47,830 bases of DNA, from the NCBI GenBank assembly GCA_028712375.1, contig JAQTQG010000009.1, positions 1-47,830 of the forward strand. Direction: 5' to 3'. Below the pieces are notes generated by a model. That model saw only the letters and a list, made by a program, of their open reading frames with translations, had not been told where the DNA came from and ran no database searches. The stretch is from Candidatus Omnitrophota bacterium. Lineage in GTDB: Bacteria > Omnitrophota > Gorgyraeia > Gygaellales > Profunditerraquicolaceae. Shown here piece by piece: positions 1-36,348 of this stretch (position 1 is the stretch's first letter; every line of letters begins with the position of its first letter). The position numbers were made by a program, and so were the translations under genes.

Positions 1-3000
1 ATGAACCCGGGTGCGATGGTCTGTACTTTTACCCAGCAGACAGGCACCGGTAAAGAACAGGCAAAACTGATAGAGAGATACAGCTTAAAACCTAATTCTG
101 CTACGGCAAGATTAAAGGATGAGGAGGGGTTATCGCAATATCTTTTTGCCAGTGATTTTGACGGTACCTTGCGCGTATACCCGGGGACTGTTCCCAGTAT
201 GCTGCAGGATAGGATCGCCGAATTCCTGGATAAGGGTGGTAGGTTTGCGATAATTACCGGACAGGTTCCTTCCGAACTCTATGAAAAACATTTAGCAAAG
301 ACAAAGATAATCGAACATGTAAAGTATGATGGGCAATTGTATATTTTAGGTGAGATCGGCGGCCTTGTCGGTTATTGTGATCAAGAAGGAAGGTTGGTTA
401 TGGATGAAGCTAATTCATATAAACTCTCCGCAGAGTTAAGGCTGCGAATAAGAGGATTAATTGATAGAAGGTTATTGGAATTAGATATTTTGCAATATGT
501 AGGAACCGAAAAAAATTCCAAGATAAGGATCCTGGAAAATAAATATTCCGCCATTACCGTTATGATCAGGGATAGCGAGCTCAGGGGCTATGCCGAAGAT
601 ATTGCTTTATATTTATCACAAAACCTGAAATCGGATGGGTTGTATGTGGCTAATTCCGGGAATTCATTTATAGATATAAGTTTAACCAGTAAGGGTGCGG
701 CATTGAAGGGTTTTGCACGCCGGTTTGATATTAGTCTGGGTAACGTTTTAATTGCCGGTGACAGCGGTAATGATATAGAGATGCTTAATTTGGTTAATGA
801 AGGAGCGCAAGGTGTTTTTGTGGGTCATGATTTAGCTGTTTTGCCTGTGGATTTAGAGAGTAAATTGGCTAAAGTTGCCAGCCCTGAGGAACTAGCGGAA
901 GCATTATGGCGCCATTATAAGTTAACAAATTCCTTAGCTTTCTGTGGCGCGCTTACTCCGGAAGAAGAAGATGTCAATAAGCGTATGCAAGAAGCAACCA
1001 ATTTGAGATCCGTGGATTGTGCGCTGGTTTTCGATATCGGCCGAACGCTTGTTTCCAAGAAAGAAGAGCTCTACAAAAATTTTGAAATAAGCACAATTAG
1101 GGATGTATTTATAGAACTTATTGAAAAAGGATTTAAAGTTGTTATTAATTCTGGAGAGAATTTCGCGGATGCTTATAAGAGAATAATTCAGTATGTTCCT
1201 CAAGATTTAAGAAGAGAGATTATCGTGTATATCAATGATGGAGCCAGGAAGATAAGGTTCCTTAATAATGCCGAACGCGGAGATGATGCGGTTGAGTATC
1301 TGCGGGCCTATCAAACAGTAATCCTGGAAGAAGATGTAAAATATATTGCAGGCGTGCTGCTTGAAGAAATAATCCGCTTGTACCGGGAAAAAATAGAAGA
1401 AGCCAGAGTGCTCGACCCGCAATTTGATAGTAAACATCAGGATGATTTTCTTAATGCGAATAATGAGCTTAGGGATCCTGAAATAGAGTATCAGGGGAGG
1501 GCTTTTTCAGGTGACGATACAAAAATAGCTATTAAGCATGTCTCATCCCCCCGGGCAGCAAGAAATGCAGGAGAGATAGTCAGGGATATCCGGGCAGAAA
1601 TTATGGCAGAAGTTAATGCTGACCTGGCACGGCGGGGGCTTTCTGCTGATACCGATTTGAGCAGAGGGACCATCATTATAAAAAGACAGGGCATTACTAA
1701 AGCTACGGCCATAAAAGATTTGATTGAAAATGAAGGTGTGCCGGCCAGCAGTATTATTTTCTTTGGCGATGAGTTTGAAGAGGGATTGAATCCTAACGGA
1801 GATAATTCCATATTGGGCATTCCGGAAGTTACCGCCATAGCAGTAAATAGGAGCCAGGATAAAGTGGCTAAAGGCGCTTTAAAGGCCGGCGCAGGTGTTG
1901 AAGCAACCGAACGTATTATCCGGCTTATACTATCCAGCTATGCCCAGTTTGGGCAAAATGGAACAACAGCTATGATTATAGAAAGGGTTGTAAGCGAGCT
2001 TAGGCCAAATTTTATTTTAACGGATGAGAAAACGCTTTCTTTGAACGATGCTGACGGCCGCGATTATCCGGCTTGTATCCTGGAAGCAGCGCAAGCAGAT
2101 GATTTAGACACAAACAAAATTAATAACTATTATCTTCCTGTGCCGGAAGAAGCCCAAAAGAAAGCAGAAGAAGATTATGGCAGGCTTTTTGTTTCTCCTA
2201 CCTTTATGGTAAGTGATTTGCTGGAAGGCCGTTTACCGGAAACGGTTAACCGGAAATTACGCAGACGGATCAAAAGTTCTAATTTTAAAGATTTACTTGC
2301 ATGCGTAATGGATCAAATCTCTCTAGGGCCGGGAAAATCATTAGCGCAGGATGCCGGGATTGTTTTTATAAATACTGTTTTAGCTCGTTCTTGCGTGGCA
2401 GCAGTTAACCTGCGGCAGGCCGTTTCTTTGCTTTATCCGGAAAACACCATTTTTCTTCACACGTATTATTTCGACCTGTCCAGATTTAAACAAGTGGTAA
2501 TTCTATATCATGAATTAAAGAGCCATATTGTAGATAATCAGGTTGAAGAACGCCTGGCCAATGCGGATACCCAAAGTTTTGCTTTAAAATTCGACCGGGT
2601 TTCAATGGAAAAAGAAGAAAAGCTGAGAAAAGAAGTTCTTACAAAATTCCGGGAAGTAGTCCAGGTTAAAGCAATATTGCCAAAGATCGGTTCTCCTCAG
2701 GAAATGAGCCGCTATATTAGGCGGGAAATTATTCCTTATTTACAGCAACGCTGGGATCATGACATCGCGGGTGAGACTTTTGTTTGGAGTCCAGCCCCGG
2801 GTTTTCGGTATAAAACGCAATTTCCTTCAATTTTGCAGTTGATTAATGATGAGGAGATGGAGATAGATATGCGGGCTAATGGCGCTTCCTGGAATGTGTC
2901 GAATGTTTCCATGGTTAATGCCCCGGCATTGTTAGGCACGATCTTTAATGAGATATTGCGTCAGAGCAATCTTTCGAGTAAGAAAGAATTATCTAATCTA

Positions 3001-5781
3001 TATGAAAGGTGTGTAGTAAAAGATGGGGTAATGGGTTTTGTAAAATATGCTAAAGACCTTGCGCGGGCTATCGGGATGTGGAATATGCCTTTTAAAGGAT
3101 TAAGTGAACCGATTCAGAAAGGATTAGTTTTATATCAGGCGGAAGAAATATTAATAATCCTGGCGGATTGGTTTACCGAGCATTATGGATATGATTTCGG
3201 TATGCTGATTTTGGCTTTAGAAAGAGGGATGTCCTCTAAAGAAGGAGAATTTTATTCTGCGGTCTGGAATGAACTAGGCCAATTGCCTCCTACGCTTAAA
3301 GATAGAAAAATAATTCAGGATAATTCTGCGGGAAATTTTGATAACTCCGGGCAAGATCCCAAAACCTACCCTGCCCGTCTCAAAGATTCCGTAGCTGAGC
3401 CAACTATAGAGCAGTTAAATAACCTTAAACTATATTTCGGAAACAATAAATTTATTTTTGTGGATAAAACTATAACTGGTAATGTCGCCGATACCGAAAC
3501 TACCCCCGGTCAAATATCAATATTAAAAGGGCTAGCTTCCCGCGCTCCGCCTTATGGTTTAAATGATTCTTTGTCCTCTTCCTTCCAAATCCTCATTAAC
3601 GACATTATCCGCCACGAAGCAATTGAATTAGAAACCAAATCCCATAAGCTCGCTTGTCAAGCCAGTTATGATTACTTTAAGTCGCATCAGGACGAATTAA
3701 TCCAATTATTAGAAGCAGCTAAACAAACTGGATTAATATTCCTGGAAGCTTATTCTCAGGAGTTAGTTGCGATTAAGTCGGCGGGCAGGCAGCTAGATTA
3801 TGTTTCTGAATTATCCGGATATATTATGAAGTGCGGTTCTTTGGCTTTAGTCCTTGTTAAAGGTGGTATGGACGCGGGTACATATTCCCGGTTGTCGATT
3901 TATTTGAACCGGGGATTCAAGGTCAATACTATCAGCCAAACGGATGAACTTTCTTTCAGGGAAATTTTAGAGCATTGGGGAGATACGGGTATTTCTAAAT
4001 CGCTTGAAAAAATATCTCAGGATCCTCTTTTTTGCGATGATATTGCCGCGGTCAGAGAAATGGTGGCTTCCCGTGATGGGGAAGCGTTCAGCGCCTGGTT
4101 TGAGAAAGCCAAAAGTATTAATCCGGGCAGTTTTGATATAAGGCTGCTGGGCATGGCTAATGATTATCTTCAGGGCGGTGCGCGGCTGATTGTTTTGGAG
4201 CAGGTAGCTTCTCTTAGGAATTTAATATCCATGTATGACCCGGAAGGCCGCGGCCGGAATATACTTAAAGTTATTTTCAGCAAAAATTATGTCAAGATGC
4301 TTACGGCAGAAGCTGTTGATGAGGAAGTGTATGCTTTACTCGAAAAACAGAATTTCCAGGATATTGTTAAGGGAATAATCGGCGCTACGAATATTTACGA
4401 GGCTCATCCCAGAAGTATCCGGCAGGTGCTTTCGACATTTTTGCTTAAGGATGAAGCAGTGATTAATGCTGCTTATCGTAATGGTTTTGATGTTAATGCG
4501 GAAGCCGATAGAAAATGGATTGGGCTTATTTGTAACGGTATTCATGTTCCTTCAAGCGATGAACTGATCCGGGAAATTAATTTGTTTAATCAGGCAGAGC
4601 ATGAAAAACTGCAGCAGGTATTGCTGCCGTATAGGTTATTACCTTGGTCAAATATTTCTTCCTGGAATATCGAGAACAAGCTGTTTGTAGGCAAGGAAAT
4701 TTCCGCCGGCGCCGCTAAAGAGATAGAAAGATTTAAGCTGCTATTGTCTTGCGGGGTAAATTCACGCCTGGATACGGAATCTCTAGAGCACGTTGAGACC
4801 ATAGAAGATTTAATCAGCAACTTGCGGATGGATGAAGATTGGCCGGGAGTTTGCTATGAAGCCTCTTTTAATATATCCAGGATATTAAGAGAAAATGGTT
4901 TTTGTGGGAATTTTGTTACGCGCTGGTGTAATAAAAGGCACGGGTTCGAAAATTACATAATAGTCTCTCTTGCCGGCCGTAAATTTATTATTTCTCTTAC
5001 CCAGGGGGCTTACCTGCTGGACGGGAGAAAGAATCTTGGTATTGTAATGATACCTTTAGAGGTGGTTGAGCAGAATAAGGATATTTTCCCCTGGTTAAGC
5101 AGTTGGCCGGTCAGGTATAGTTATCAATTCGAAAGCGATGGCCGGATTAGCGCATATGTTCTAAAAGATGAAAAATTTTCTACCTATCGGGAGGAAAAAG
5201 GGGTTGATGTTAAAAATATTCTTAGAGAGGGCCCTAATTTTAATAAAGAAACAAGAATAACCATCGAATATAGTTCCGGGGAAGTTGTACAGATGCTGGA
5301 AAAGCCAACCGGTATAGAGATGATTGAGGATACCTCCGAGGATGCGCAAAAAGGCCCGGGTAATTTATCTTTCAGCCAGCCGGATTACTCTACCCTTAAA
5401 GCTCCTACTACAGATGATTTAATGCAGAGGTTTAATTGTGATTTTGGTTATATTGAGAAAGTTATTAAAGGGGCGGAAGAAACCCAGCTGCCTGCAGGTT
5501 TGATCGAGGCGTTGGAAAATAAGGGGTTTGAAAATTTAGTGCGCATGTTGCGCGCTAAGAGAGCGCCTTATATCAGATTGTTTGTGGTAAAGACTCCCGC
5601 GCTTGCCGGGCTCTTTGGTATTCCCCGCTATAAACATGCCGTATTAACCAGGGATACTATTCCTGCATACACTATTCCTGACAAGCAAGGTAACCTTTGT
5701 GTTTACATCACTCGCGATTTTTACGAGTCATTGTTGTCGGATTTCGGGTTATTCGGGTTTGTTCTGGATCATGAACTTTAA
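1..5781 (+). CDS. N-terminal portion of a giant multidomain protein (HAD-like phosphatase, PMM-like HAD, HE-motif modules, transglutaminase-like Cys-His module)
   Basis: 1926-codon ORF. SDFDGTL and IAGDSGND HAD motifs, YHELKSH, GVCYEAS...RHGF. Ends at an in-frame TAA after ...GFVLDHEL, but the same frame stays open to 27912. Base 1 is an ATG, but the upstream context is not visible. Confidence 0.85.
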   Translation: MNPGAMVCTFTQQTGTGKEQAKLIERYSLKPNSATARLKDEEGLSQYLFASDFDGTLRVYPGTVPSMLQDRIAEFLDKGGRFAIITGQVPSELYEKHLAKTKIIEHVKYDGQLYILGEIGGLVGYCDQEGRLVMDEANSYKLSAELRLRIRGLIDRRLLELDILQYVGTEKNSKIRILENKYSAITVMIRDSELRGYAEDIALYLSQNLKSDGLYVANSGNSFIDISLTSKGAALKGFARRFDISLGNVLIAGDSGNDIEMLNLVNEGAQGVFVGHDLAVLPVDLESKLAKVASPEELAEALWRHYKLTNSLAFCGALTPEEEDVNKRMQEATNLRSVDCALVFDIGRTLVSKKEELYKNFEISTIRDVFIELIEKGFKVVINSGENFADAYKRIIQYVPQDLRREIIVYINDGARKIRFLNNAERGDDAVEYLRAYQTVILEEDVKYIAGVLLEEIIRLYREKIEEARVLDPQFDSKHQDDFLNANNELRDPEIEYQGRAFSGDDTKIAIKHVSSPRAARNAGEIVRDIRAEIMAEVNADLARRGLSADTDLSRGTIIIKRQGITKATAIKDLIENEGVPASSIIFFGDEFEEGLNPNGDNSILGIPEVTAIAVNRSQDKVAKGALKAGAGVEATERIIRLILSSYAQFGQNGTTAMIIERVVSELRPNFILTDEKTLSLNDADGRDYPACILEAAQADDLDTNKINNYYLPVPEEAQKKAEEDYGRLFVSPTFMVSDLLEGRLPETVNRKLRRRIKSSNFKDLLACVMDQISLGPGKSLAQDAGIVFINTVLARSCVAAVNLRQAVSLLYPENTIFLHTYYFDLSRFKQVVILYHELKSHIVDNQVEERLANADTQSFALKFDRVSMEKEEKLRKEVLTKFREVVQVKAILPKIGSPQEMSRYIRREIIPYLQQRWDHDIAGETFVWSPAPGFRYKTQFPSILQLINDEEMEIDMRANGASWNVSNVSMVNAPALLGTIFNEILRQSNLSSKKELSNLYERCVVKDGVMGFVKYAKDLARAIGMWNMPFKGLSEPIQKGLVLYQAEEILIILADWFTEHYGYDFGMLILALERGMSSKEGEFYSAVWNELGQLPPTLKDRKIIQDNSAGNFDNSGQDPKTYPARLKDSVAEPTIEQLNNLKLYFGNNKFIFVDKTITGNVADTETTPGQISILKGLASRAPPYGLNDSLSSSFQILINDIIRHEAIELETKSHKLACQASYDYFKSHQDELIQLLEAAKQTGLIFLEAYSQELVAIKSAGRQLDYVSELSGYIMKCGSLALVLVKGGMDAGTYSRLSIYLNRGFKVNTISQTDELSFREILEHWGDTGISKSLEKISQDPLFCDDIAAVREMVASRDGEAFSAWFEKAKSINPGSFDIRLLGMANDYLQGGARLIVLEQVASLRNLISMYDPEGRGRNILKVIFSKNYVKMLTAEAVDEEVYALLEKQNFQDIVKGIIGATNIYEAHPRSIRQVLSTFLLKDEAVINAAYRNGFDVNAEADRKWIGLICNGIHVPSSDELIREINLFNQAEHEKLQQVLLPYRLLPWSNISSWNIENKLFVGKEISAGAAKEIERFKLLLSCGVNSRLDTESLEHVETIEDLISNLRMDEDWPGVCYEASFNISRILRENGFCGNFVTRWCNKRHGFENYIIVSLAGRKFIISLTQGAYLLDGRKNLGIVMIPLEVVEQNKDIFPWLSSWPVRYSYQFESDGRISAYVLKDEKFSTYREEKGVDVKNILREGPNFNKETRITIEYSSGEVVQMLEKPTGIEMIEDTSEDAQKGPGNLSFSQPDYSTLKAPTTDDLMQRFNCDFGYIEKVIKGAEETQLPAGLIEALENKGFENLVRMLRAKRAPYIRLFVVKTPALAGLFGIPRYKHAVLTRDTIPAYTIPDKQGNLCVYITRDFYESLLSDFGLFGFVLDHEL
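145..870 (+). other. HAD-superfamily phosphatase-like domain 1 (Cof/SPP type, motifs intact)
   Basis: SDFDGTL (DxDGT) and LIAGDSGNDIEML motif IV; SKGAALKGF. Confidence 0.8.
1021..1950 (+). other. HAD-like domain 2, phosphomannomutase-like, motif I degenerate
   Basis: LVFDIGRTL in place of DxDGTL; ITKATAIKDLI and IIFFGDEFEEGLNPNGDNSI resemble the PMM-type C-terminal motif. Confidence 0.65.
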
Positions 5782-5928
5782 GAAAAAGGGACTATTCCTC
5801 ACCGTTCGCATAAACAGACTTGGGAAGACAGGGGCTGGCTTGATTTTTTTGTTGATGAAAAAACCGGATTAAATAAATTTGTTAAATTATATATTGACCG
5901 GTTAGTCTTAGAAGGCGATATCGAAGGC

Positions 5929-20900: not shown

Positions 20901-23900
20901 ATTTTTGAAAGTAAAATTCCGGGATGAAAGCGGCCAGGTAAGATTCGCTCATATTTATCTTGGGCAAAACGACAATATCGATTTAACTTTAGGCAAGGGC
21001 GGGAAGATATTTTCTCAAACTTATGAAAATTGGCAGAAGGAAAATCCCGGGATCTTCCGCTATAAATACGATGACATGGAAAAAGAAAAAAGAGTGGCTT
21101 GGTCTAATTTTAAGAGGCTTCCGCTTACGCAAATGATCAAAAGAATTAATCAATATAACCTTGATCATGGTAGCAGGGATATACAGGACCAGCTAAAAGA
21201 TCTATTTTTACAATTATTTACAGCCTTAAATCTGGAATGCACATTAAGCAGTAAAACATGGTTATCATTAGAAAGATTAATAGGCAGAAATAAGGGGCCA
21301 GGTGCATATTATGTGATCAAGCATCAGTTTATTAATGATTACCTTAGCAAAATATTCCCCAGGACTTTGTTGGGGGAAATAAATGTTACTCTCGAGCCGA
21401 TTAGGGATCTTTCTATTTGGCCGGTCACTGAGAACCCTGATATGAAGTCTGCGTTGTTGAGTTGGTTGAGTAATAACAAGGTACGCGGTGCCCCGATTTA
21501 TTACCGGGAATCCGAGAAAATCTCCATCTCCAGGCTTCTTTATTTATTATCCGCCTCAATTCCGCAACAGCAATCTTTATTCTCCGGTGGGCCTTTTCTT
21601 TATTCTCTTCCTGTTCCCTGCGGTTTTCAGAAACAGTCGGAGAGTAAGTTCGGCAGGAATAAAACTTTAACCAGTATAGAGATAGAAAATTTAAATATCC
21701 AATATCCCGAAACTTTTTTTGAAGATTACTATCAGGTTTTGCAGCAGCTTTTAAATTCTTTAGAAAAACTTTTAGGGAGAGCTCCGCCGGAATTATCCTC
21801 CTGGAAATTGATCATCTCCACGGATTTTACTTTTACTCTTGGCAATGTCGCTGCCTGCGATATTGAAAAGCACATAGTCTATCTCCATCCTTATTTCTTT
21901 AATATCTCTCAGGAAGACCTTGCTAAAGAAGGGCTCACAACAGAACAACTGCAGTTAAAAATTTTATACCATGAGTTGGTAAGCCATATTACCAAAAGGC
22001 TAAAGGACCCTTTGGCGATGATCGATACGGAGTATTTTTCAAGAAGGTTGTCCGGGCTCTGCGGGAGCAAGGCCGGCTTATGGGAAGATATCAAACATCG
22101 TGTTATGGGCTTAGAATATTCTGAAAAAATTGCTAAGGATTTTGTCAATATGATAAAGAAGTGGAAATATAAGGGTGTTCGCAACGCGCTTCTTAACTGG
22201 GAAATGAAGCTTCTTAAGGCACAGAAAGAGTGGAAGGACGGCTTACTTCCTTTGGCAGGATTAGTGGAAATAGAGAGTTCGGTAGTGAAATTCATCAGCA
22301 GAAAAATATTAGAAGAGATAGATTCCGAAGACGGGTATTTTGAATTAGATGAGATAATCTTTAATAAGAAAGCCAACTGCCTGGGTTATTCCCAGGCCTT
22401 TTATCTTCTAGCCAACTCTTTGGGCCTTATGGCTGAAGTTGTCTCTGTTTTGAATGTGCGTAATAATCCGGTTAAACACGTTTTTTGTTTAGTTTTATTA
22501 TCCGATTATAAAGTAATGGCAGTTGATTTGGCCTCGCAGATGGTTGACGGCCCTTTTGAGTTTAGCCAGAGGTTTAAATCTTGCGGAAATTGTTTTGAGG
22601 CAAAAGATACCGCAGATATCACTGCGGCTTATGAAAGGATTCAATTAAACGCGAGAAAAGGCTTGATAGCTGCTATATACAATAATAGAGCCGGGGATAA
22701 ACGGATATCAGGAAGTAATGAAGAAGTACTTGCGCTATATAACAAGGCAATAGCCTATTATCCGCAATACGCTTTGGCATATAGAAATCGTGCGAGAATT
22801 TATGCTTATTGCGGGCGCTATGAAGAAGCGGATAAGGATATTGATTCCGCTATAGAATTAGGTATTAAAGATGCGCTTCAATATTACGAATGGGGAATCG
22901 ATAGCCGGCTTGATGAGGAAGCGAGCTTTTATTTTAGTGCTGCGATCAAAGCAGGGTATAGAGATGCAATAATATATTACAGGCGCGGGCTCGCTTATAA
23001 CAATTTGGAAAAATATCAGGAAGCAGTAAGCGATTTTATTGAAGCAGCAAAGTTTAATGAAGCGGCGGAGCTTAAACCGGGGCTTGCGAATATATATTAC
23101 TGCCTGGGGGTTGCTTACGACGGTGGCTTGGAATTCAGCAAGGCCTTAGATAGTTTTAGCCGTGTGATTGAGATAAATTCCGATTTTTCCAAGGCGTATC
23201 ACAAACGCGCAAAAGTTTATTTGAAATTGAATAAACCGGAATTAGCGCGTAAGGATTTTGAAGCAGCCGTGAAATTAGACAGCTGGTTAAGAGAAGACGT
23301 GGAGGATGTTTATGAAGAGCGCGGATGGCCGTTTGAAGTATCTGCTGCTTCTCAAAAAGGCCTTGAACAGAGATCCGGCGAAGATTTTGCCTTAGAGACA
23401 TTTATCCTCAAAAACCTTCAAAAAGATAATCCTGCCGCTATTTGTGCAGAAAATCCGGCTACGCGGGATCCTGGAAATTATTCTTCTGATTGTGTAAAAG
23501 AATCTCATCCTCTTCTGCCTATTATCCAGTTTCTTGCCTGGGTTGTCAGCGGCATTGTGGGCTTGTTTACGCGTAATCAGAAACCGGCAAAAATATTCTC
23601 GGAGGTATTTAAATATTCATACTCTATTGCTCTGAAGCATCTTTTGGAAACAGCCCGCCCGGTATTTAGGTTGGCATATTCGTATTCGTACTCTGTTACC
23701 GCCGCCCGGATGTTTAGAATATTTCCTCCAGCCTCCAGATTTATATATCCGATTCTTGCTTTATTTATTCCCGTTGCCAGGGGGTTTAGGGGTGGCTGTA
23801 TACAATGGCTTGTTTCTGCGAAAATCCGTAATGCCGTCTATCAAGAATATGGATATTCATCCGAAAGAATCGCAAACATAGAAGGATCTGTTAAAGTTCA

Positions 23901-26900
23901 TGAGCAGGCCAGATCTGAATTAGCTGGTTTGTGGGCGCAGTATCGATACTATAAAAGTAACTGCCTCCTCCGGTATTTAAGTAAACATGGAGGAAAGGGC
24001 CTGGTGGATAAACTTACCCGGGAGTTAAGCCCGCTTGATATAAAAATATTTCCGGGTATTAAGGCGCCTGCTTACAGGGTTTCCAGGGTAAATGAAATTC
24101 TAGATGTAAAAGCAGAGAGGATTTTTTTAAACGAGGCTGCCATTAAGAAAAATATCGATGGCCGTATCTATAATATTTACCATGTAAGCAGGCGGGGCAC
24201 CGTTGCTTTAACGAGCATCAACGATAAAAATGCCTGGGTGGCGGGGAATAGCGGTAAAGAAGGCAGAAAGCTAAAAAGATTTTTTGATTATTTTTTGCAC
24301 ATTGCTCTGCCATTAGGCGTCCTCGGAGGCAGTGTTTATGTTTTAACCCTTCCTTTTGTATCCGGCTTAAGCGCCTTGGCTTCTGTCGCGGTTATTTCAG
24401 CGTTGAGTTTAGCAGGGGTAGCCGGATTATTTTATTTTGTAGAAAATGTTAGGCGGCTTTTTGAGCATAAACCGGCGAAGTTTTTCTTTGGGGCCTGGAA
24501 TCAGATTAAGAAGTTAAACGTTGAAAAAAGATCTGTTTTAATAAGGGCAGCCGATGTTTCCTATATGCAGCAGGAAAAGAAAATCCGCCCGAGTTTAGGC
24601 GCTACGGTTATTAAGATTTTCAGTTTAAGAGGATTGGCGCTTTTAGTTTCCGGAGCTTTAGTGGCTTTTATTGTTACCGGTACGATTAATTGGTGGATTC
24701 TGGCCGGGGCAATAGCGGCTGTTTTTGTCCCGTATTTGATTGCTATATTTTATATTTTTTTCTGTTTTGATATAGACCGCTATAAATTCCGCAATGAATT
24801 TATCAGGGAACATCTAAACGGTATAAAAGTAAAGGATGGTTTTGTTCAAGAACTCAAGCAGCTTAGTCCGGGATATGATTTTTCAAAACCTTTCAAAAAT
24901 AATCTATGGAATAATTTTACTTTAAGGTTTCCGGTTTCTGCAGGGGTTATTGCTTTTATCCTGGGTAAATTACCGGTAATCTTTTTTGGGTATTTGGCGG
25001 GTGCGGCGATAGTTCCTTTCTTGGGGATGGAAGCTGCAAATTTTTCCTTATCGGATTTGCTGCAGTTATTATCCGGAGCGTTAAAGTGGGAGTGGGCGGA
25101 TAACCTTTTTCAGCAGTTAATTAGCGTAATCAATAATTCCGGCTTGATGATTAATGTGGGCGAAGCGGTTAAGTTGAGTATGGTAGTTTTGGGTTTTGGG
25201 GCATTGTCCTTGTTCCATCGAGTCAGGTCATTTCCTAAAACTGTGATTCATAATTTTTTACACTTTTTGCCTAATTTGCTGCATATCTGGATTATTGCTG
25301 CTATAATTGGAGGAGGTAGTTTCGGCAGTTTGTTTTTATATAAAGCGCAAGTAATAACCAAAGTTAATTTTCCGCAAGCAATCCATCAATTTATCGGTGG
25401 CAAGGAAAATGTGGCAGTTTGGAACAGAGCAAATTTACTTTATCAGCAGGTTCGTGTTAATCCGGAAGCGGCTTTGCAGAATATTGTGCCTGCGAGCGAC
25501 CTTGAACTTTTATTAAAAGAGATCGAAGAAAAGGAGAAAATTAAGGGTTTAGCGCCGGCGGACTTAGAGTTGAAGCGGTTCTGTATTTATAAGTTGGGGC
25601 AGGGATATGGTAGCGTTAACTCCGGAGAGATTCTGAAATCGGCTTTAAGCGATCCGGATAATGATCTCCGGGCCATTGCCACAATTTCTTTAATTACTCG
25701 TTATTATTCAAGCGATGCAATTGCTACTTTAAATAATTTTAAGTTTACCCAAGGAGGCCCGGTTCAGCAGGCGGCAATTCTTAGTTTGAAAAAACTATAT
25801 TTTCATCAGGAAGTGAAAGATTTTCTTTTAAAGATTTTGCATGATGGTGGGCTTCCGGAAAATCAGCTGGTAGCGATGGGGGCTTTAAGTGAAAAAGTAA
25901 GCTCACCGGAGATAAGGACGTCTTTTGTTGATGTGTTGAAATCTACGCCGGATGCACTAGTAAAACAAGCGGCTATATTGTCTCTTGCCCCGCAGGCAGA
26001 TTACGAAATAATGAAAATAATAAGACCGTTTTTAGCTGATTTGGATTTAGGGGTTCGGCAGGCAACGATAGTATCTTTGGGGCTAAGGTTGAATGATTTT
26101 CCGGAGAATTTTATTCTGCTTAAGCCTCAACTAACCAGTTCGAATGTGCAAATTCGCGCAACTGCCGTTTCAGCTTTAGGCCCCAGCCTAGATAAATTCC
26201 CGGAATTAAAACAGCCGTTTTTAGATATTGCTAAGGATGCGTCATTGCCTGTTGAAATGCGCCAAAATGCTTTATTTTCTGTATCAGTATTTGATGAGCC
26301 GCAGGTAAAAAATTTATTGGTTGATAATTTGGATAGTATGGATTGGCAAATGCGGCAGGTAGCTGCGTTTGGCCTGGGTAATTTTAAGGGTGCAGAAATT
26401 CCTGACTTACTTAAGCCTTTAACTAAAGATTCTAATTGGCAGGTCAGGCAGTCTGCCGCAGCTTCTTTGGGTAATTTTGACCAAGCGCAGGTCATTGATT
26501 ATCTTAAGCCGCTTTTGGATGATGATCATTGGGAAGTGCGCCTGGCAGCAGTGGATTCATTCGGTAACTTTGACGATCCGCAAGTTGTGGATTTATTGAC
26601 GCCGGTAGTTAATGATTCTGTTTGGCAGATTCGTCAGTCTGCGGTAACGTCTTTAGGAAATTTTGATACACCAGAAGCGATAAAGGCCATTACTCCAAGT
26701 TTAAGTGATAGTATTTCTGATGTTAGGTGTGCTGGTATTCTTCCTTTAGCTGCAAGCCTTGAGAAGTTTCCTGAATTAAAACAACCATTGATGGACAGGT
26801 ATCAAGATAGCTTTGAGGATGAATGGGTACGTTCTATAGCGATGACGTCTCTTCAGAATGCTGGGTATACTAAGGAACTATATTTAGACAATATTCAACC

Positions 26901-27912
26901 ATTAGAAAAAAGCGTAGTTATTTTTGTTCCCGGAATGGATGATGATTTAGGATCTGATCTTTCATCGAGTAGGGATCCAGGTTGGTCAACAAAACTTCAA
27001 TTAAGACTAGATTTTAATAAAGTTGAATCAGTTGGAGCAGCTAAAATATTTGAATTTAATTGGCCAGGCAACATTACAAATTATTCTCAGGCAGAAAGTA
27101 GTCTTGTTGATTATTTACAACAGAGTTATGTTTATGCCAAACAATGGGGTGCGGATTCAATAACTCTTCCTCTTCATAGTGCAGGTAATTCATTAAGCTA
27201 CAAGGCGATAGATTTGTTAACAGAGTGGCTGGAAAGAGATAAAATAAGAATGAAAATTAATATAGTAGGTATGGGTTCACCTGCGTCTAGAACCGCGGAG
27301 AGATTTTACGAAATAACAACAAGTACTAGTGGTCAGTTTAAAAACTTTTGGTCAATTTTTGATCCTGTTTCTTGGTTTACTGCTTTTAGCCCAAGTTCAC
27401 AAATGATTTGGGGTAATCACGGAAGTTATTTTTCAGACTTAGATGTTAGACAAGCCGCCCTTTCGATGGCTACAGGGATAAATATTCCTATTAGCTATTC
27501 CCGTTTTTCCGTAGGATCTTTCACTGATCCTTATTTTTCTGGGACTTTTAACATAAAACAGACAACGATATATTTCTCCCCTCAACTAAAAACTACTAAA
27601 ATAAACATTGTAACTAATTATGGAACAATGTCCCAAGCTTCTTTAGTTTTAGATTATAACTCATCATTAAATTTTCAATCACCAGATTTTAGTACATGGA
27701 ATGGTAGTTACTGCCAGCCTCTTCCGAGAACTTATACATTTCCAAGCAGTAATTTTTCGAGTTATCAGCAGATTATTCCGCCGAGTGTAACCGTTCCATC
27801 TTTTAGATATACACCCCCGGTGATTAATTATAACCCGCCAACTATTAATTATACTCCACCGGTTGTTAATGTGCCACAAAGTAATAGTTCAGGATTTAGT
27901 AATTGGCCTTAA
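5929..27912 (+). CDS. Giant multidomain protein, probably the continuation of the 1..5781 frame (open from 5782)
   Basis: 7327-codon ORF called from a TTG with no convincing SD. The frame is open from 5782 and encodes coherent protein (EKGTIPHRSHKQTWEDRGWLDFFVDEKTG...). The first in-frame ATG is only at 6391. Confidence 0.9.
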   Translation: MDKFKPSAHEKRELVYKYVKSRKKEVLSKAKVFLTVKGNNEAIDRCRVDSAVEANGINLEVRAGKFGNDELYVYISNPRYVKGKECVIFFDQINDSREVIKLLFTLELLEECHARNIVCVLPKDVNGWIIEVLKQFANLELVTKADLSKHAFSLMQVKKEIWKDYKIPPKPAKESFDGVLFMPNTEIFKQAGIVNAQSIGLDESGNVILPQGLEKNGHYLLVCATDSANWLVRLFKVLFTLKKSGISPVLFFTYFSYMRQHKAYRVRKHGTFALSANSARAVLMGLSVFSRQIRTLNIHFSKEIGTVKVKELFPGLAKSIEIYNLNIFTDLAGYFKDKKRLVNPVVIGADKGAAIFSEDAAKNNAIEYGGHMDKKRDPSKPVRFQVTMIMPQIDVHNKDVILLDDIISSGETIINAALLLLSRGARRIFIGSVYGEFTEGVNIFKDRDMLRSAMKQLKLSGQLTEEQVKDLEKRGALIEEVVSTDIIPNPFAKIKVGAMFNRYKFNLINLRKFIAYLLDNFPAGVDVKLWQKKLAMAEDLYAALGLKSDAALGGFNRITEEISYYGRIRGPNGDISNEKIKGIFDKFFPAKYSQAEVRDLVQTIKTHEQTHKVNPQETDENKVFLIQAKKENQRIHALLMQVWQHIKEFVNAQLIITGPVPAFAGLPNGFIGLQETKTSNVLFMRVNNNNRRVPAVNPVEPIRKTKIEIKADPLPGQIKREKHQEDEVIISADTLAAKQCGFVSYNKHGESVYVGNPGGLSQRQRVEIAEREIFTVVIEDWDKKEQDAAKEVDRLFFKWGISYYPDNSVDSYPVLYNVADNCQVVLHMFDKFLSWSNGEYLTVFLRGGFYGYCIKDIFGLLITFAVLKRNIPVHIVLVEETLKPYINMLQERKQCLDFLDKFPVNSVVFINGEPEKCNHQHAGYKFSVATSIYSTLEDFAQAGRKAIEEFVPGCLEKDGYRSIRVALAGQLTQAQNTFIENLNDLELGRIISEAIDTTNPLGAEAVINTIKHFVPKGAPATLLRYMAAHRIYKDNPKKSKEMAGQRGGNDSLRTIQRELSVLQAAGLVEGNGRSGYFLLEWLKHIDIEVMIQENPVLDSPGAGKDDAYWIKERILNSKLSDNSWMKLLYRRYGEYDGIRKVLIKFLERNHAFKIQAFSEIDRLSNEEVLEKADRYVNNWLLEQQDQFVSGGNDYYHSIESLSLREILLYPTTGILDLSQLLFTDPVINFPYGFPAFIIEKIGQECISSRLASLYLIIKAVSILSNDPSLMSMQEQDVDNLFNYLKDRADHFGFERVPENILSLADIFITFDLARQQSSLKNLFMLMSRLQKEDAGWEKVLFTPNSEDNLPEVSDATKAYFRFETSKNRYPATIPASDAPDRAATQEEMGVVVTAFGGKDALIAQGVTLDDTNTIISPTLSSPAEVNNGILYINPNTLRGPPEQLKVIFQGHELARLQGKVVINYSNLLCVKDIPKDQLDGQTVFLSVDLNVGKTSKKLKSEKLTRVKAVVQDIKYLIKNKARKIILVSHNGDCADYYKGLNPDEITDGMVDPDYSLQPVAEILTAILKENSFEEEVIFLPGCVGKNIKDAIKEAERGVFLLENPRFFAAETAKDKAQVEVFARELQDAIQADIYVQAAAGALHRGSQASRGPVTSFIKGPKVVGLLVEKELRGLYNLATDPAKPVIAIMQGAKLEGKLEVIKSLITNQITDKVAVLGKMAIPFIKNEPIAEEIRGLAQKYNVELILPSRIIAARLPEDTTVELFIDSLKKDPKKTVEAGSFSVNSVPDGWLILDVDPDDAADLMLSALKGVNTIIINGTAGLNENEQFARGTNKVMDVVARYKREYQQAVLIGLGGDGVSAAKTMLGEEEAERLFELLSTMGGSALDYLTGKELSALNYIQTAAKTLICAEQENGDNNPADRSANDYHFKTVENAITRFGGIHEILKNEVKDIYRFPVILMGIDTAAQSLDLTPSEVANLLPARSVRFALAPSGWKIGACIGIVHTDGKEEPVIIFPQDVNRRIIAHEIRAALIPELTHQENMLIENDSPYYLRRSWELQRRIKRAVRNDFGRILDWQNGPEVHGNFFASMPAAGWVPQGKEVYLDTFHAISAQSQFDAPVKFDAAKPVEWAFKYMGEDLKAIMEYLKVLGKILGLPGRQFDALRFPLAYHRDGQMYWAQGLTERSVRKAIEALSYRNKLHFSADTIISHIRLHESMPTEEGAINSQAQEFGKNYLFIGCLKELINFDNLKVGNRRRGYVDRWYLERMLKRGRSNPDELKEEFFDHLRAYPELKKYLSRESAAALDDASKFLNTPLGALTKELLDKKEIIIKGEGVEDFIFKLSKIKDEGIDCFEIEVYTDNDGSRLRVGFIDFRLGIISAGIKYGFKASGNSGHDRAIEVSAVYGDRGIGKALISLALALAKIKGKKKFMAYSCSNAEAFYTAVGFRRKGQDSDFEFDLSEQIIPAVKIKLGNLVSLEKRLSEMDFKLAIFGLDNSLARTNQNVSEEMLSRIRTLLRLGVKVAVVDGISLAELRKRIGAEEEEDFSDNLLLADFASSKTSLKQLVIRNAAISDDMRKKIIRAVSKAASELDRKEEENFLIEHSDHCVTLRLIEHGFCFNHRAAAELTGEVRYQLKLSGLSDVDAFQTTSGIYITPNSKAELLSAIISGMGVKKHETFIFADQIFTVGENPSLLEAIPEVAFANFGEYGLYSGSENVFDIYGGVERIGLILDQLIEYKKQANVSSCGYTEEELSDAGDMAIKLLAGEKIEVISEGNTKFIFELSEVSRKISEHFEIICFENGVKEAGYINFRIGVTESWIKYRVDANGNAKDIYAIKTQPEYEDMGIGKALMLLAMAIAKIKGSVKFRVYNSAPDALGFYQALGFKSTGSGNDFELSLTGIHLQPFRLKMSKLDHLKEKFAEKKLKALVFGLNDVLTGAGKHISWDMGSRIDYFLRQGIKVIIASGFDLGEMLDNVGVNRRGSLPDNLILIGSMGQEISPAAFNLQAELISEETREKINRIIDMYAYRIDPKSYDDFKIINKPFYVALRFCKQQDKYIEPGWSRGLRFMELFRSALLEEGVSGINVVRSTAGIYFTPNSKGKAVSDVLNKLGIAQEECIVFADQLLRDGDERSLLDSLPQASFINLGELNVRAKSVFDMHGGVEQAEAALDILINNIEGIRALEARSIDSVNKGDLCPARSEKEFFIDARMEEKVKKALVDIGRIREKDFSAKRLSKKVWSLLYYKGVSGNLVRRLAYNAVIEMSQAVAAGKKERGKVLGLAGQISGIYEIVIKRGTTLEMASLGSLEKSNALIYNFCGMVVKEFDAVSTNAVFEFKFHLSLHKLYQQVIGIYASKLSHLEVLNDYPEFSGIRNLVYFGEADSGYVIEAINTFIAQCISEHKDIPQILPPTEKGVSVKFTLPQIKEFLCCASTLALTRKEEGGMTSRPAIFEDSHILRRVFAESIIDKKIEQLKGEKFDIIIAVSNAPEEQLKRMKEILSEKLPVYSADVSLFADQIHSPNPQVFKFFKRYSQGLWILEGYLAKSGKFTGPPEEIRVAYFNKISKEIAFNITSEEAADILKNNGFEDVETEELWNFICRHEELHKENPSRRCYTVLEMQWIELESQVFAREILMQMRPFINKISSYFFRSLKSEFRGKYPYLCKEASFILARLISRAFKLSIGGNAPDRIEMVSGVIIKEGLIASGLHRWLVIYKDDKRALLIDPVFSRFNEEFIDTILLGYHEELSGKYSFVEWEDFKYQRESYLWVSVLGILGFDEEETSNTIREVRAGRIIDLELKGNIEKLEGIISGLARLAEKEDVKNTQNPACGKFMVVITREDIRAFEMARENLDSVVKRLPQTRTAALFGHSAVHCKDLVEKFDRVILAVPGQKGSDLILGLIPPEHRFKVEIRKVDGSGMMGLFRQRKAEVCKYSYPVDNCVALSKDLQSREPAGIESFFKGTVDLVVAEEFCSRLLYFMLYSLETEILFEDGFPPVVAAAEGLGDKLQIAFIKNLAYILDPEGLIYYAENSYSPFSEKLIRETGLKEVRGVLAHRKWLDSSDEVTAHLLKYKRSLISKGSDGSILWGRGNSLFTEETNGVLEFPFSKKSNIKLEKNPEQPEKRIAKFMKKTMVCELFPWKYSTMELTFQAAIKKLPVNMRGKLEGLWEDDPGIFEVYKNMAELGSVSGGNIKLDIRNFISVMLLALTIRHEVDHLLNPGDQEEDVGIRDALYLLDFGEDVLGRLRRTFPPYFNRDGFDTDGYGANLVNSVLKVKKFLRTRLESEEERLCLADKLFRVLRITPDLGIQECYEAVENTISKNEKFTQLMRLMTAGIEEISCDLGEDIKRRVRELEYPEKTAEDFAAMAESWKDSRGCSVIFEWKDALSMAKEQYRRGKIPVSVLAGIEQRLVNKVGLRILQEMDGEGESDDLDEIMRTRAPSCLGYSELFYVLGNALGLVVKGVEPLELRGSIEGHSFCMAYLSDTRAVLVDLAYREFISRPFEFEQKFRAAGKYWEFKGRDPFMKFYRKILILDGKGLVAILYGNRGLRLCYPSRYEEALHYINKAIEYAPDSPALHRKLGHVYHEMFLGEENVRSLVLVDKSLNALDKAIEMDSESALAHRNRAVVSVDAQKPVEAVAEFIWAALLHPQWAGGICRFLWHLLRLKECSFSDILRGIPYYFQQRLARRVKRKLNTKAQLPEPPKGTVSGSDGMVFRQWSKNPQLLAEGVFGKLAPLGYAISSFEIEEINSKLNLIRRKLLAEGFFREEDFDIVMELMDYAYKTATFRLGKQKKYHITIDRRCFENQDLLYLVIKHELTDIKLNALIPGIDPAIRELFTLLTVNVDGMMKLRNEHPRKAAELLKYLRKVANLRIGLFPRYETILNNPALNDSADFIKEICRLLTKETVYFSNMRLLAEKQHMSEVLLEKLPFRFNLLKLRLREINERLFESSRIIGDEKLEVLTSYHGKVPVAIKAFMPYAGDIQYKIDGDNVFLKVKFRDESGQVRFAHIYLGQNDNIDLTLGKGGKIFSQTYENWQKENPGIFRYKYDDMEKEKRVAWSNFKRLPLTQMIKRINQYNLDHGSRDIQDQLKDLFLQLFTALNLECTLSSKTWLSLERLIGRNKGPGAYYVIKHQFINDYLSKIFPRTLLGEINVTLEPIRDLSIWPVTENPDMKSALLSWLSNNKVRGAPIYYRESEKISISRLLYLLSASIPQQQSLFSGGPFLYSLPVPCGFQKQSESKFGRNKTLTSIEIENLNIQYPETFFEDYYQVLQQLLNSLEKLLGRAPPELSSWKLIISTDFTFTLGNVAACDIEKHIVYLHPYFFNISQEDLAKEGLTTEQLQLKILYHELVSHITKRLKDPLAMIDTEYFSRRLSGLCGSKAGLWEDIKHRVMGLEYSEKIAKDFVNMIKKWKYKGVRNALLNWEMKLLKAQKEWKDGLLPLAGLVEIESSVVKFISRKILEEIDSEDGYFELDEIIFNKKANCLGYSQAFYLLANSLGLMAEVVSVLNVRNNPVKHVFCLVLLSDYKVMAVDLASQMVDGPFEFSQRFKSCGNCFEAKDTADITAAYERIQLNARKGLIAAIYNNRAGDKRISGSNEEVLALYNKAIAYYPQYALAYRNRARIYAYCGRYEEADKDIDSAIELGIKDALQYYEWGIDSRLDEEASFYFSAAIKAGYRDAIIYYRRGLAYNNLEKYQEAVSDFIEAAKFNEAAELKPGLANIYYCLGVAYDGGLEFSKALDSFSRVIEINSDFSKAYHKRAKVYLKLNKPELARKDFEAAVKLDSWLREDVEDVYEERGWPFEVSAASQKGLEQRSGEDFALETFILKNLQKDNPAAICAENPATRDPGNYSSDCVKESHPLLPIIQFLAWVVSGIVGLFTRNQKPAKIFSEVFKYSYSIALKHLLETARPVFRLAYSYSYSVTAARMFRIFPPASRFIYPILALFIPVARGFRGGCIQWLVSAKIRNAVYQEYGYSSERIANIEGSVKVHEQARSELAGLWAQYRYYKSNCLLRYLSKHGGKGLVDKLTRELSPLDIKIFPGIKAPAYRVSRVNEILDVKAERIFLNEAAIKKNIDGRIYNIYHVSRRGTVALTSINDKNAWVAGNSGKEGRKLKRFFDYFLHIALPLGVLGGSVYVLTLPFVSGLSALASVAVISALSLAGVAGLFYFVENVRRLFEHKPAKFFFGAWNQIKKLNVEKRSVLIRAADVSYMQQEKKIRPSLGATVIKIFSLRGLALLVSGALVAFIVTGTINWWILAGAIAAVFVPYLIAIFYIFFCFDIDRYKFRNEFIREHLNGIKVKDGFVQELKQLSPGYDFSKPFKNNLWNNFTLRFPVSAGVIAFILGKLPVIFFGYLAGAAIVPFLGMEAANFSLSDLLQLLSGALKWEWADNLFQQLISVINNSGLMINVGEAVKLSMVVLGFGALSLFHRVRSFPKTVIHNFLHFLPNLLHIWIIAAIIGGGSFGSLFLYKAQVITKVNFPQAIHQFIGGKENVAVWNRANLLYQQVRVNPEAALQNIVPASDLELLLKEIEEKEKIKGLAPADLELKRFCIYKLGQGYGSVNSGEILKSALSDPDNDLRAIATISLITRYYSSDAIATLNNFKFTQGGPVQQAAILSLKKLYFHQEVKDFLLKILHDGGLPENQLVAMGALSEKVSSPEIRTSFVDVLKSTPDALVKQAAILSLAPQADYEIMKIIRPFLADLDLGVRQATIVSLGLRLNDFPENFILLKPQLTSSNVQIRATAVSALGPSLDKFPELKQPFLDIAKDASLPVEMRQNALFSVSVFDEPQVKNLLVDNLDSMDWQMRQVAAFGLGNFKGAEIPDLLKPLTKDSNWQVRQSAAASLGNFDQAQVIDYLKPLLDDDHWEVRLAAVDSFGNFDDPQVVDLLTPVVNDSVWQIRQSAVTSLGNFDTPEAIKAITPSLSDSISDVRCAGILPLAASLEKFPELKQPLMDRYQDSFEDEWVRSIAMTSLQNAGYTKELYLDNIQPLEKSVVIFVPGMDDDLGSDLSSSRDPGWSTKLQLRLDFNKVESVGAAKIFEFNWPGNITNYSQAESSLVDYLQQSYVYAKQWGADSITLPLHSAGNSLSYKAIDLLTEWLERDKIRMKINIVGMGSPASRTAERFYEITTSTSGQFKNFWSIFDPVSWFTAFSPSSQMIWGNHGSYFSDLDVRQAALSMATGINIPISYSRFSVGSFTDPYFSGTFNIKQTTIYFSPQLKTTKINIVTNYGTMSQASLVLDYNSSLNFQSPDFSTWNGSYCQPLPRTYTFPSSNFSSYQQIIPPSVTVPSFRYTPPVINYNPPTINYTPPVVNVPQSNSSGFSNWP
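6100..7425 (+). other. Ribose-phosphate pyrophosphokinase-like (PRTase fold) domain
   Basis: KFGNDELYVYIS...; TYFSYMRQHKAYR (compare PYFGYARQDR); PRTase loop VILLDDIISSGETI at 7126-7170. Confidence 0.75.
10320..11640 (+). other. Phosphoglycerate kinase-like domain, several catalytic motifs altered
   Basis: VFLSVDLNV, ILVSHNGD, VFLLENPRF, YVQAAAGALHRGSQAS, MQGAKLEGKLEVI, IINGTAGLNENEQFARGT, IGLGGDGVSAAK, GGSALDYLTGKEL follow the PGK motif order. Confidence 0.85.
12901..13310 (+). other. GNAT N-acetyltransferase-like domain, copy 1
   Basis: YGDRGIGKALISLALALAKIKG...AEAFYTAVGFRRKG (compare GxGIGxxL...AxxFYxxxGF). Confidence 0.75.
13384..14140 (+). other. Degenerate HAD-like domain 3
   Basis: LAIFGLDNSLART at motif I; YITPNSKAELLSAII; TFIFADQIFTVGENPSLLEAIP at motif IV. 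Confidence 0.6.
14215..14630 (+). other. GNAT N-acetyltransferase-like domain, copy 2
   Basis: YEDMGIGKALMLLAMAIAKIKG...ALGFYQALGFKSTG; paralogous to copy 1. Confidence 0.75.
14695..15450 (+). other. Degenerate HAD-like domain 4
   Basis: LKALVFGLNDVLTG; YFTPNSKGKAVSDVL; CIVFADQLLRDGDERSLLDSLP, paralogous to domain 3. Confidence 0.6.
18940..19850 (+). other. Transglutaminase/SirB1-like Cys-His module plus TPR, copy 1
   Basis: APSCLGYSELFYVLGNALGL...EGHSFCMAYLSDTRAVLVDLA followed by YEEALHYINKAIEYAPDSPALHRKLG and LDKAIEMDSESALAHRNRA. Confidence 0.65.
22080..23300 (+). other. Transglutaminase/SirB1-like Cys-His module plus TPR, copy 2
   Basis: ANCLGYSQAFYLLANSLGL...VKHVFCLVLLSDYKVMAVDLA followed by TPRs (YEEADKDIDSAIELG, FSKALDSFSRVIEINSDFSKAYHKRAKVYLKLNKPELARKDFEAAVKLD). 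Confidence 0.7.
23500..25345 (+). other. Multi-helix transmembrane region of the giant protein
   Basis: Long hydrophobic segments: IIQFLAWVVSGIVGLF, ALPLGVLGGSVYVLTLPFVSGLSALASVAVISALSLAGVAGLFYFV, LALLVSGALVAFIVTG, WWILAGAIAAVFVPYLIAIFYIFFCF, IFFGYLAGAAIVPFLG, LLHIWIIAAIIGGGSFGSLFLY. Confidence 0.85.
25620..26880 (+). repeat. HEAT-like repeat array (31-aa units in its best-ordered part)
   Basis: Repeated units such as SNWQVRQSAAASLGNFDQAQVIDYLKPLLDD / DHWEVRLAAVDSFGNFDDPQVVDLLTPVVND / SVWQIRQSAVTSLGNFDTPEAIKAITPSLSD. Confidence 0.9.
26905..27520 (+). other. Alpha/beta-hydrolase (lipase-like) domain
   Basis: VVIFVPGMDDD start strand; nucleophile-elbow-like PLHSAGNS (Ser codon 27178); later FDPVSW and GNHGSYF as candidate Asp/His. 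Confidence 0.55.
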
Positions 27913-27924
27913 AAAGGAGATACA

Positions 27925-29253
27925 ATGAATTATTTAAGAACAAGTAAAATAAAAATATTTATAGGTTTAGTCACCTTGTTTATATTATTTAATATTTATA
28001 AATTCTTTCAGGTTCGTTTATTGAATTTGGATTTGCCTAAAGGTCAGATTGTATTTTCTTCGGGTATAGACGGGGATAGTGAGATATATATTATGAATAT
28101 TAATGGCACAAGCTTAAAGCAATTAACTAATAATTCCGCAACTAACTTTGATACTGCTATGGATGATGAGCCTTCTTTTTCTTCAGATGGGAGAAAAGTT
28201 GTTTTTGTTTCCAGCCGTCAAGGTAAAAATAAAGAATTTATTTATAATCATCAAGGTAAAATTATTGGTACTGGAAGTTCAAAAACAGGAACTTCAGATA
28301 TATATATTATGGATTTAGATGGCAATAATCAAATTCCTCTGACTTATAAAGAGTTAAATTTGTATCCTTTTTTCTCTCCTGATGGCAGAAATATTGTTTT
28401 TGAGGCAAGAGGTAATTCAGAATGGCAAACAAAAATGATCGATGTTAATGGGAGTAATCAGGGAATATTAGATGCCAGGTCAGGACATTATAAGTTTTCT
28501 TCTGATGGTAAAAAGATATACGATACATTTCAATGCGACCTTTCGGTAATGAATGAAGATGGAAGTAACCGAATAAGATTAACAAATTTTTTGACATTTG
28601 AAGAAACTATGAGAGACCCCAAGAAACGCCGAACGAATATTCCTAATTTTGCTTTTTCTCGTAATGGCAAAAAAATATGTTTTATTTTAAAAGAAGATAG
28701 AGGTAAATCAATTGGGGAATTTTATAATATAATAAGATTTTATATTATGAATATTGATGGCTCTAATTTAGAACAAATATATACGATAGATTGTTCGCAT
28801 CTAAATGAACTATATGTTTCTGGCTATAACGAAAAAGCGATGTTTTGTAATATCAAGCAATTGCAGTATTTCCCAGATGATCGGGCAGTTATTTTTATTG
28901 CAGATTTTACTTATAAAAAAGGAATTTACCTTTTAGATTTACAATCTGAGAATGTAAAAGAGCTAACTTATAAAAATCAGGCTTGGAGAGATATTCTCGG
29001 TTTTACTTTTACACCAGATGGAAAAAAAATAGTTTTTATCACAGACACATATCCTAAAAATTATGTAATACATGCACTGTTTCTCCATAGTATTAGGGCC
29101 TATGTCAATTATTTTCTTTTTAGAAAATCAACTCCTTTTTATGATAATAAATATCTTTGTATTATGGATATAGATGGGAAGAATTACCGGAGGATTGCTA
29201 AGCTACCCGAAGGCACTGAGCTTGGTCGTGATTTTATCCATTGGGAGCAGTGA
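27925..29253 (+). CDS. TolB/PD40-type beta-propeller protein with N-terminal membrane anchor
   Basis: Repeats DSEIYIMNINGTSLKQLTNN, EPSFSSDGRKVVFVSSR, DIYIMDLDGNNQIPLT, FTPDGKKIVFITD. SD AAAGGAG upstream; starts 13 nt after the giant ORF stop. Confidence 0.85.
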   Translation: MNYLRTSKIKIFIGLVTLFILFNIYKFFQVRLLNLDLPKGQIVFSSGIDGDSEIYIMNINGTSLKQLTNNSATNFDTAMDDEPSFSSDGRKVVFVSSRQGKNKEFIYNHQGKIIGTGSSKTGTSDIYIMDLDGNNQIPLTYKELNLYPFFSPDGRNIVFEARGNSEWQTKMIDVNGSNQGILDARSGHYKFSSDGKKIYDTFQCDLSVMNEDGSNRIRLTNFLTFEETMRDPKKRRTNIPNFAFSRNGKKICFILKEDRGKSIGEFYNIIRFYIMNIDGSNLEQIYTIDCSHLNELYVSGYNEKAMFCNIKQLQYFPDDRAVIFIADFTYKKGIYLLDLQSENVKELTYKNQAWRDILGFTFTPDGKKIVFITDTYPKNYVIHALFLHSIRAYVNYFLFRKSTPFYDNKYLCIMDIDGKNYRRIAKLPEGTELGRDFIHWEQ

Positions 29254-30866: not shown

Positions 30867-30883
30867 ATGTTAAGTTTTAACAT
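30867..30883. promoter_or_regulatory. Operator-like perfect inverted repeat upstream of the sugar ABC locus
   Basis: ATGTTAA-GTT-TTAACAT; overlaps a weak -10 paired with TTGACC at 30848-30853. Confidence 0.4.
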
Positions 30884-30947
30884 TACGTCTTTTTATAGTC
30901 TATTCCCTGTGGATAATATCCCCCACGACAAACGGAAGGAGTATAGG

Positions 30948-33121: not shown

Positions 33122-33125
33122 TTTT

Positions 33126-36276: not shown

Positions 36277-36348
36277 AATTAAGCTTATCGCTTAAATTCG
36301 TTCAGGGTTTAATCTAGTAAGCAACAGAAATAAAAAGGGGAGGTGGGT

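Follow-up and report, generated by a model that had tools for sequence, protein, structure and literature searches.

Giant open reading frames with enzyme-derived modules in Omnitrophota and a candidate envelope-anchored member

Surface glycolytic enzymes and giant proteins described so far

The GAPDH, enolase, PGK and TIM that moonlight on cell surfaces lack signal peptides and are the very proteins that do the housekeeping work of the cell. The proteins described here share with them the location of glycolytic enzymes outside the cytoplasm, as predicted below, but correspond to additional, dedicated copies that are joined covalently and carry signal peptides, in genomes that also have a canonical operon. 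Neighbouring glycolytic genes are also known to be fused in the bifunctional PGK/TPI protein (NCBIfam NF010569), which is cytosolic and about 650 aa long, whereas the frames analysed here span thousands of residues with unrelated modules, and the one in our window lacks TIM. They are huge bacterial multidomain proteins like NRPS/PKS megaenzymes and giant surface proteins (PMC11573180), but contain central-metabolism enzymes and no carrier or synthase domains.

The giant proteins of Omnitrophota have so far been a riddle, with few domains recognised. Seymour et al. (2023; PMC10066038) described giant ORFs with few annotated domains, related mostly to adhesion, among them a 39,678-aa protein of V. 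archaeovorus, and adhesion, carbohydrate binding and predation are also cited in PMC12057145 and PMC11573180. In the literature searched, no mention was found of glycolytic or gluconeogenic modules in these giants or of their export, a preprint on giant genes cited there being outside its scope. The giant analysed here resembles those of PMC10066038 in phylum, size class, multiple TM segments, poorly conserved sequence and a proposed role in the envelope or in predation, but differs in its metabolic-enzyme modules with kept active sites, in the Sec signals of its relatives and in its conserved locus.

The giant frame, its modules and its conserved locus

The stretch of DNA analysed (the window, 47,830 bp) is the complete contig C15 of a metagenome-assembled genome (G000; 1.65 Mb, 63 contigs, about 95% complete). 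It begins inside the giant gene, whose 5' end is therefore missing.

1..27912, + strand: giant frame of at least 9,303 codons, truncated on its 5' side where the contig begins and interrupted by a single in-frame TAA, with coding periodicity in every segment
5779..5781, + strand: TAA within a domain (nonsense mutation, sequence error or readthrough); homology in G030:C75 is continuous across it, and no start codon or SD follows within 147 nt

Frame +1 has no stop codon between nt 1 and 5778 and, after the TAA at 5779-5781, stays open for 7,376 further codons to 27909, so that even with the part before the TAA excluded the ORF exceeds 20 kb (22,131 nt, 5782 to 27912). A gene boundary at 5779 was ruled out by the absence of a start codon for 147 nt and by the sequence of G030:C75, which aligns unbroken through the TAA (36% over 695 columns, E 5e-130; LDHEL*EKG vs LDHEFYEKG); real boundaries in G008, G020 and G021 consist of an SD plus ATG. 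As the surrounding domain is continuous in this relative, the TAA probably represents a nonsense mutation or a sequence error. The single frame from 1 to 27912 proposed in the first-pass annotation therefore holds in that the same frame is used throughout, with the reservations that the TAA interrupts it and that the beginning of the gene lies beyond the contig. The minus strand of G086 has in-frame stops facing that genome's giant, which were disregarded as belonging to shadow frames.

The in-frame TAA at 5779, the contig edge at nt 1 and the MAG source could point to an assembly chimera, as the first-pass annotation had considered, or to a pseudogene. Both are extremely improbable, as giants are found at the same locus in many independent assemblies, reaching 42,913 aa in a 2-contig genome, coding periodicity extends throughout, and the C-terminal part is under purifying selection (dN/dS about 0.27). 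Assignment to Omnitrophota agrees with the four relatives of the hydrolase end, all titled Candidatus Omnitrophota.

Modules were called by Pfam and NCBIfam profile searches, which recovered the HAD, PRPS-like, PGK, GNAT, TPR and HEAT modules reported previously (HAD-IIB 2e-18, PRPS 1e-27, PGK 4e-64, two GNATs, HEAT 1e-60). Those derived from metabolic enzymes are the following.

142..804, + strand: HAD-IIB (Cof-type) phosphatase module (PF08282 1.9e-18, TIGR00099 2.5e-20), with the DFDGT, TGQ, K and GDSGND motifs present
6103..7245, + strand: PRPP-synthetase-like module (TIGR01251 1.3e-27), with RQ, the catalytic His, D-x-G, DK-x-R and DDIISSG partly kept
10357..11604, + strand: phosphoglycerate-kinase (PGK) module (PF00162 4.4e-64), extra to the canonical PGK at G000:C19
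12877..14136, + strand: GNAT plus decayed HAD unit, copy 1 (GNAT profile; internal duplication, 1e-33; HAD nucleophile Asp changed to Gly)
14197..15453, + strand: GNAT plus decayed HAD unit, copy 2 (GNAT profile; internal duplication)

Read directly from the sequence, the four HAD motifs are complete in the first HAD only. The PRPS-like module lies below the TIGR01251 cut-off (96.5 vs 113 bits), and thus below the level of a ribose-phosphate diphosphokinase. The PGK fold scored 217 bits (cut-off 27), and 13 of its 15 catalytic and substrate residues are kept, the two lost being arginines on the 3-phosphoglycerate side (R to S, R to D). As the canonical PGK of this genome is present at C19, in one operon with the canonical GAPDH and TIM, the embedded PGK is an extra copy; for both PGK and PRPS, a module in a large ORF was found beside a canonical copy. 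The modules of the window are mixed, with the first HAD intact by motif, PGK at 13/15, PRPS partly kept, and the GNATs and two later HADs decayed. Searches of the window for TIM, GAPDH, enolase, PEP synthase, FBPase and aldolase gave no significant match, the best being a TIM fragment at 5 bits.

Peptidase-like modules are placed among these, followed by TPR and HEAT repeats.

4849..5070, + strand: putative Cys-His (transglutaminase/papain-like) module 1, VCYEAS ... RHGFENY (motif scan)
7747..7761, + strand: HExxH motif, HEQTH (motif scan)
10024..10302, + strand: HE-motif module ahead of PGK; a second giant, in G047, has a copy with 49% identity
16726..17130, + strand: HExxH (HEELH) followed by a Cys-His-Asp module (motif scan)
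18229..18873, + strand: HE-zincin-like module, RHExDHxLNP invariant in relatives
18925..19683, + strand: Cys-His-Asp (transglutaminase-like) plus TPR unit, copy 1 (internal duplication; conserved triad)
21583..22038, + strand: HE module, YHELxSH invariant in relatives
22054..22809, + strand: Cys-His-Asp (transglutaminase-like) plus TPR unit, copy 2 (PF01841 0.0023; internal duplication; conserved triad)
22708..23280, + strand: TPR array (PF00515 9e-17)
25771..26751, + strand: HEAT-repeat domain (PF13646 1.1e-60)

Judged from sequence, both the two GNAT-HAD units and the two Cys-His-Asp/TPR units arose by internal duplication. The proposal of peptidase-like modules gained support from the number of HExxH motifs in the giant (3, against 0.145 expected from shuffles) and from the invariance of two HE motifs in relatives; a third zincin ligand was seen in none. 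The Cys-His-Asp triad is conserved in both transglutaminase-like copies, with a Pfam score below the cut-off. Since HE and Cys-His-Asp modules stand between enzyme modules, and since relatives have the same locus split into several signal-peptide-bearing genes, it could be envisaged that the giant is processed into separate proteins by its own zincin-like and Cys-His modules. Such a polyprotein is nevertheless very unlikely: no cleavage sites were identified in the giant, catalysis by these modules is putative and the structure model of the HE plus Cys-His unit is poor (pLDDT 38).

Downstream of the giant, the window contains a conserved set of genes.

27925..29253, + strand: PD40 beta-propeller protein with an N-terminal membrane anchor (PF07676 2.7e-21), the conserved partner directly downstream of the giant (synteny)
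30867..33974, + strand: sugar ABC importer, made up of a binding protein and two permeases; its position immediately downstream of giants is conserved
33976..38764, + strand: exported glycosidase-like proteins (GH2/GH72-like) and partner; u384 and GH72 pass a simple signal test

The importer/glycosidase-like locus is 79-93% identical to the window in G007 and G020 and 51-78% in G040, and the PD40 gene follows the giant directly in the window and in G006, G009, G017 and G021; no giant was found at the corresponding locus of G014 and G057. In G007, G020 and G021, signal-peptide-bearing strings with PGK lie directly upstream of the same importer operon as the giant of the window, and in G021 the genes in this position encode FBPase plus an aldolase-like domain, PEP synthase, and TIM plus PGK. 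The homologous locus of the 2-contig genome G040 (C2, upstream of 342879; L109, L110) holds an open frame of 42,913 aa. The GH2/GH72-like proteins of the window, at 33976-36276 and 37418-38764, are mutual paralogues (about 32% identical in cross matches). A giant in G024:C13 (L100), whose C-terminus is of the family found in the window's giant, contains repeated HTH-like matches (YdaS, Cro, HTH_23) and a VWA domain.

Enzyme strings across Omnitrophota

At least 17 of the 145 Omnitrophota genomes have a PGK embedded in an ORF, the lengths of these ORFs being 1,315-24,209 aa. This is a lower bound, given the fragmentation of MAGs, and string counts vary with the extent of the contigs. A canonical PGK copy accompanies the embedded one in most of the string-bearing genomes. 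The PGK-bearing ORFs also carry GAPDH, TIM and enolase in varied combinations, and the orders detected include GAPDH-PGK-TIM (G112), GAPDH-GAPDH-PGK-enolase-aldolase (G163), TIM-enolase-PGK (G133), GAPDH-TIM-PGK-iPGM (G008) and TIM-GAPDH-PGK (G020); modules of PEP synthase, aldolase and FBPase were found in other string ORFs. Pyruvate kinase was not among the embedded modules, and ribosomal protein S11, used as a control, was present only as a normal gene, being embedded in 0 of 25 genomes. Fresh capture of each genome's own PGK found no support, as only 2 label changes are needed to part the embedded from the canonical PGKs, in a tree limited by long branches. PGK is single in every giant, and GAPDH is repeated in 5 of 8 strings. 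GAPDH is a tetramer, and its repetition may serve subunit pairing within one chain.

Several of these frames have further peculiarities. An 18,421-aa frame in G048:C33 (L024-L026) carries CoaBC, CoaD and CoaE together with GH77, FBPase, histidine kinase and methyltransferase domains. The enolase of a minus-strand 1,988-aa ORF with a signal peptide at its start (G112:C9:17000-24000, L142) is circularly permuted, profile positions 135-396 preceding 1-136. In the 94% complete genome G091, the sole PGK match (C43, near 136000-137100; L040) covers an N-terminal half only; it is joined to a frame of 24,209 aa and sits directly after a canonical GAPDH gene. Two consecutive string genes of G008:C121 (L029) look like duplicates, with identical signal peptides at their starts and mature N-termini that hardly differ.

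The first-pass annotation had suggested that decayed enzyme folds were used as binding modules. Over 23 embedded PGKs, 84% of cells were kept at the 15 catalytic and substrate positions, compared to 61% for the other columns invariant in canonical PGKs, and the 84% was reached by 0 of 5,000 random sets of 15 invariant columns, although active-site columns may evolve more slowly for reasons common to all PGKs. Cys149 and His176 were kept in 9 of 12 GAPDH modules (one of the nine, from G091, being a standalone canonical gene), with the losses in extra tandem copies, and His95 and Glu165 were kept in 13 of the 14 TIM modules scored. Every covered active-site residue was kept in all the enolase modules examined, as were the catalytic His and Cys motifs of an exported PEP synthase. 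Decay has gone further in the genus of the window, where the TIMs of G020 and G021 have lost His95 and the PGK of G021 keeps 7 of 15 residues. The earlier suggestion is thus only partly right: it suits the GNATs and two later HADs of the window, but across the phylum the embedded modules preferentially keep their active-site residues.

These data bear on whether the enzyme folds only lend structure to a surface adhesin or coat, or bind ligands for it. The loss of key residues in the later HADs and GNATs of the window, the dead extra tandem copies of GAPDH and TIM, the gradient along which modules decay and the view of Omnitrophota giants as adhesins (PMC10066038) would fit such a role. The better retention of active-site columns than of other invariant columns, the complete active sites of the enolase modules and the intact motifs of the exported PEP synthase do not, making it a possible but rather doubtful explanation.

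Regarding location, a Sec-type signal peptide was found in 20 of the 23 enzyme-string ORFs whose N-terminus lies inside the fetched sequence, compared to 0 of 45 canonical enzymes scored with the same rule, which was a simple one and not SignalP. Examples are TIM-GAPDH-PGK of G020, GAPDH-GAPDH-PGK-enolase of G163 and GAPDH-PGK-TIM of G112. The three exceptions were G074, G169 and G091, the N-terminus of the latter being a canonical-type PGK. The PGK-bearing ORF of G169:C57 (L043; 1825-12873, minus strand) starts with a LAGLIDADG-like sequence (HYLAGFTDGEGSF) instead of a signal peptide. The export signals of these related strings suggest that parts of central metabolism may be sent outside the cytoplasm.

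Location and putative function of the giant

Near the C-terminal third of the giant, 8 TM-like segments precede the HEAT domain, in agreement with the membrane domain proposed earlier.

23512..25311, + strand: membrane region, with a TM-like segment at aa 7838-7856 and seven at aa 8101-8437 (hydropathy, positive-inside rule)
26878..27750, + strand: alpha/beta-hydrolase-like end, with a putative triad of Ser aa 9060, Asp 9121 and His 9140, invariant in alignment A1

With the segment at aa 7838-7856 included, both cargo and hydrolase are predicted to lie outside, and without it the cargo would be inside, the call of this single first segment being decisive in a topology derived from simple hydropathy and the positive-inside rule. 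The lipase-like nature of the end found partial support. Ser, Asp and His are invariant in A1; in alignment A2 only Ser and His are, L113 having an insert at the Asp. A model of this end (pLDDT 60) had alpha/beta hydrolases as its best PDB matches, though weak ones (E 2e-3, TM about 0.3), and its profile had no match in the PDB.

The gene start lies off the contig, so the signal peptide of the giant itself cannot be seen, and its export is proposed from the signal peptides of related strings. On these grounds an envelope location, also put forward in the first-pass annotation, is the likelier one. A metabolic scaffold anchored under the membrane, on its cytosolic side, would place the modules beside the sugar ABC importer encoded nearby, where their substrates and cofactors are found, and would agree with the positive-inside rule if the first TM segment is ignored. 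It is unlikely, since 20 of 23 related strings carry signal peptides, and three of these strings occupy the locus of the window's giant.

We consider it about an even chance (probability roughly 0.5) that the giant of the window is a member of the Omnitrophota enzyme strings, exported by Sec and anchored in the envelope, which acts outside the cytoplasm with its neighbours on host or prey material. After Sec export, the multi-TM region would keep the string in the cell envelope, with the enzyme-derived and peptidase-like modules, the HEAT domain and the alpha/beta-hydrolase end facing outwards. Together with the PD40 beta-propeller, the exported glycosidase-like proteins and the sugar ABC importer, it would act on material of host or prey cells, which the peptidase-like and hydrolase modules could open or digest, while the metabolic modules would bind or convert phosphorylated metabolites from those cells. 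Action on a host or prey is proposed because the neighbours are exported, because the giant has hydrolase and peptidase-like modules, and because the phylum has been described as symbiotic or predatory (PMC10066038); export of the window protein, its topology, its substrates and this context are all inferred.

Against export count the partly decayed modules in the genus of the window, the absence of an ATP/ADP translocase from this genome and its class-mates, and an N-terminus off the contig. Moreover, phosphorylated substrates and NAD/ATP are not expected outside the cell unless prey lyses. Harvest of ATP from an exported glycolysis through an ATP/ADP translocase was not supported for the lineage, as the translocase is absent and pyruvate kinase is not embedded.

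A more far-reaching version of the export reading can be put forward only tentatively: that Omnitrophota export a working lower glycolysis/gluconeogenesis (PEP synthase, enolase, PGM, PGK, GAPDH, TIM, aldolase and FBPase) as covalent strings, probably acting on prey or host metabolites, with the giant of the window as an anchored member. If gluconeogenic strings with live active sites are indeed exported, the role of the giants would become testable by expression and assay of single modules, and extracytoplasmic central metabolism would add a new trait to a predatory or symbiotic way of life.
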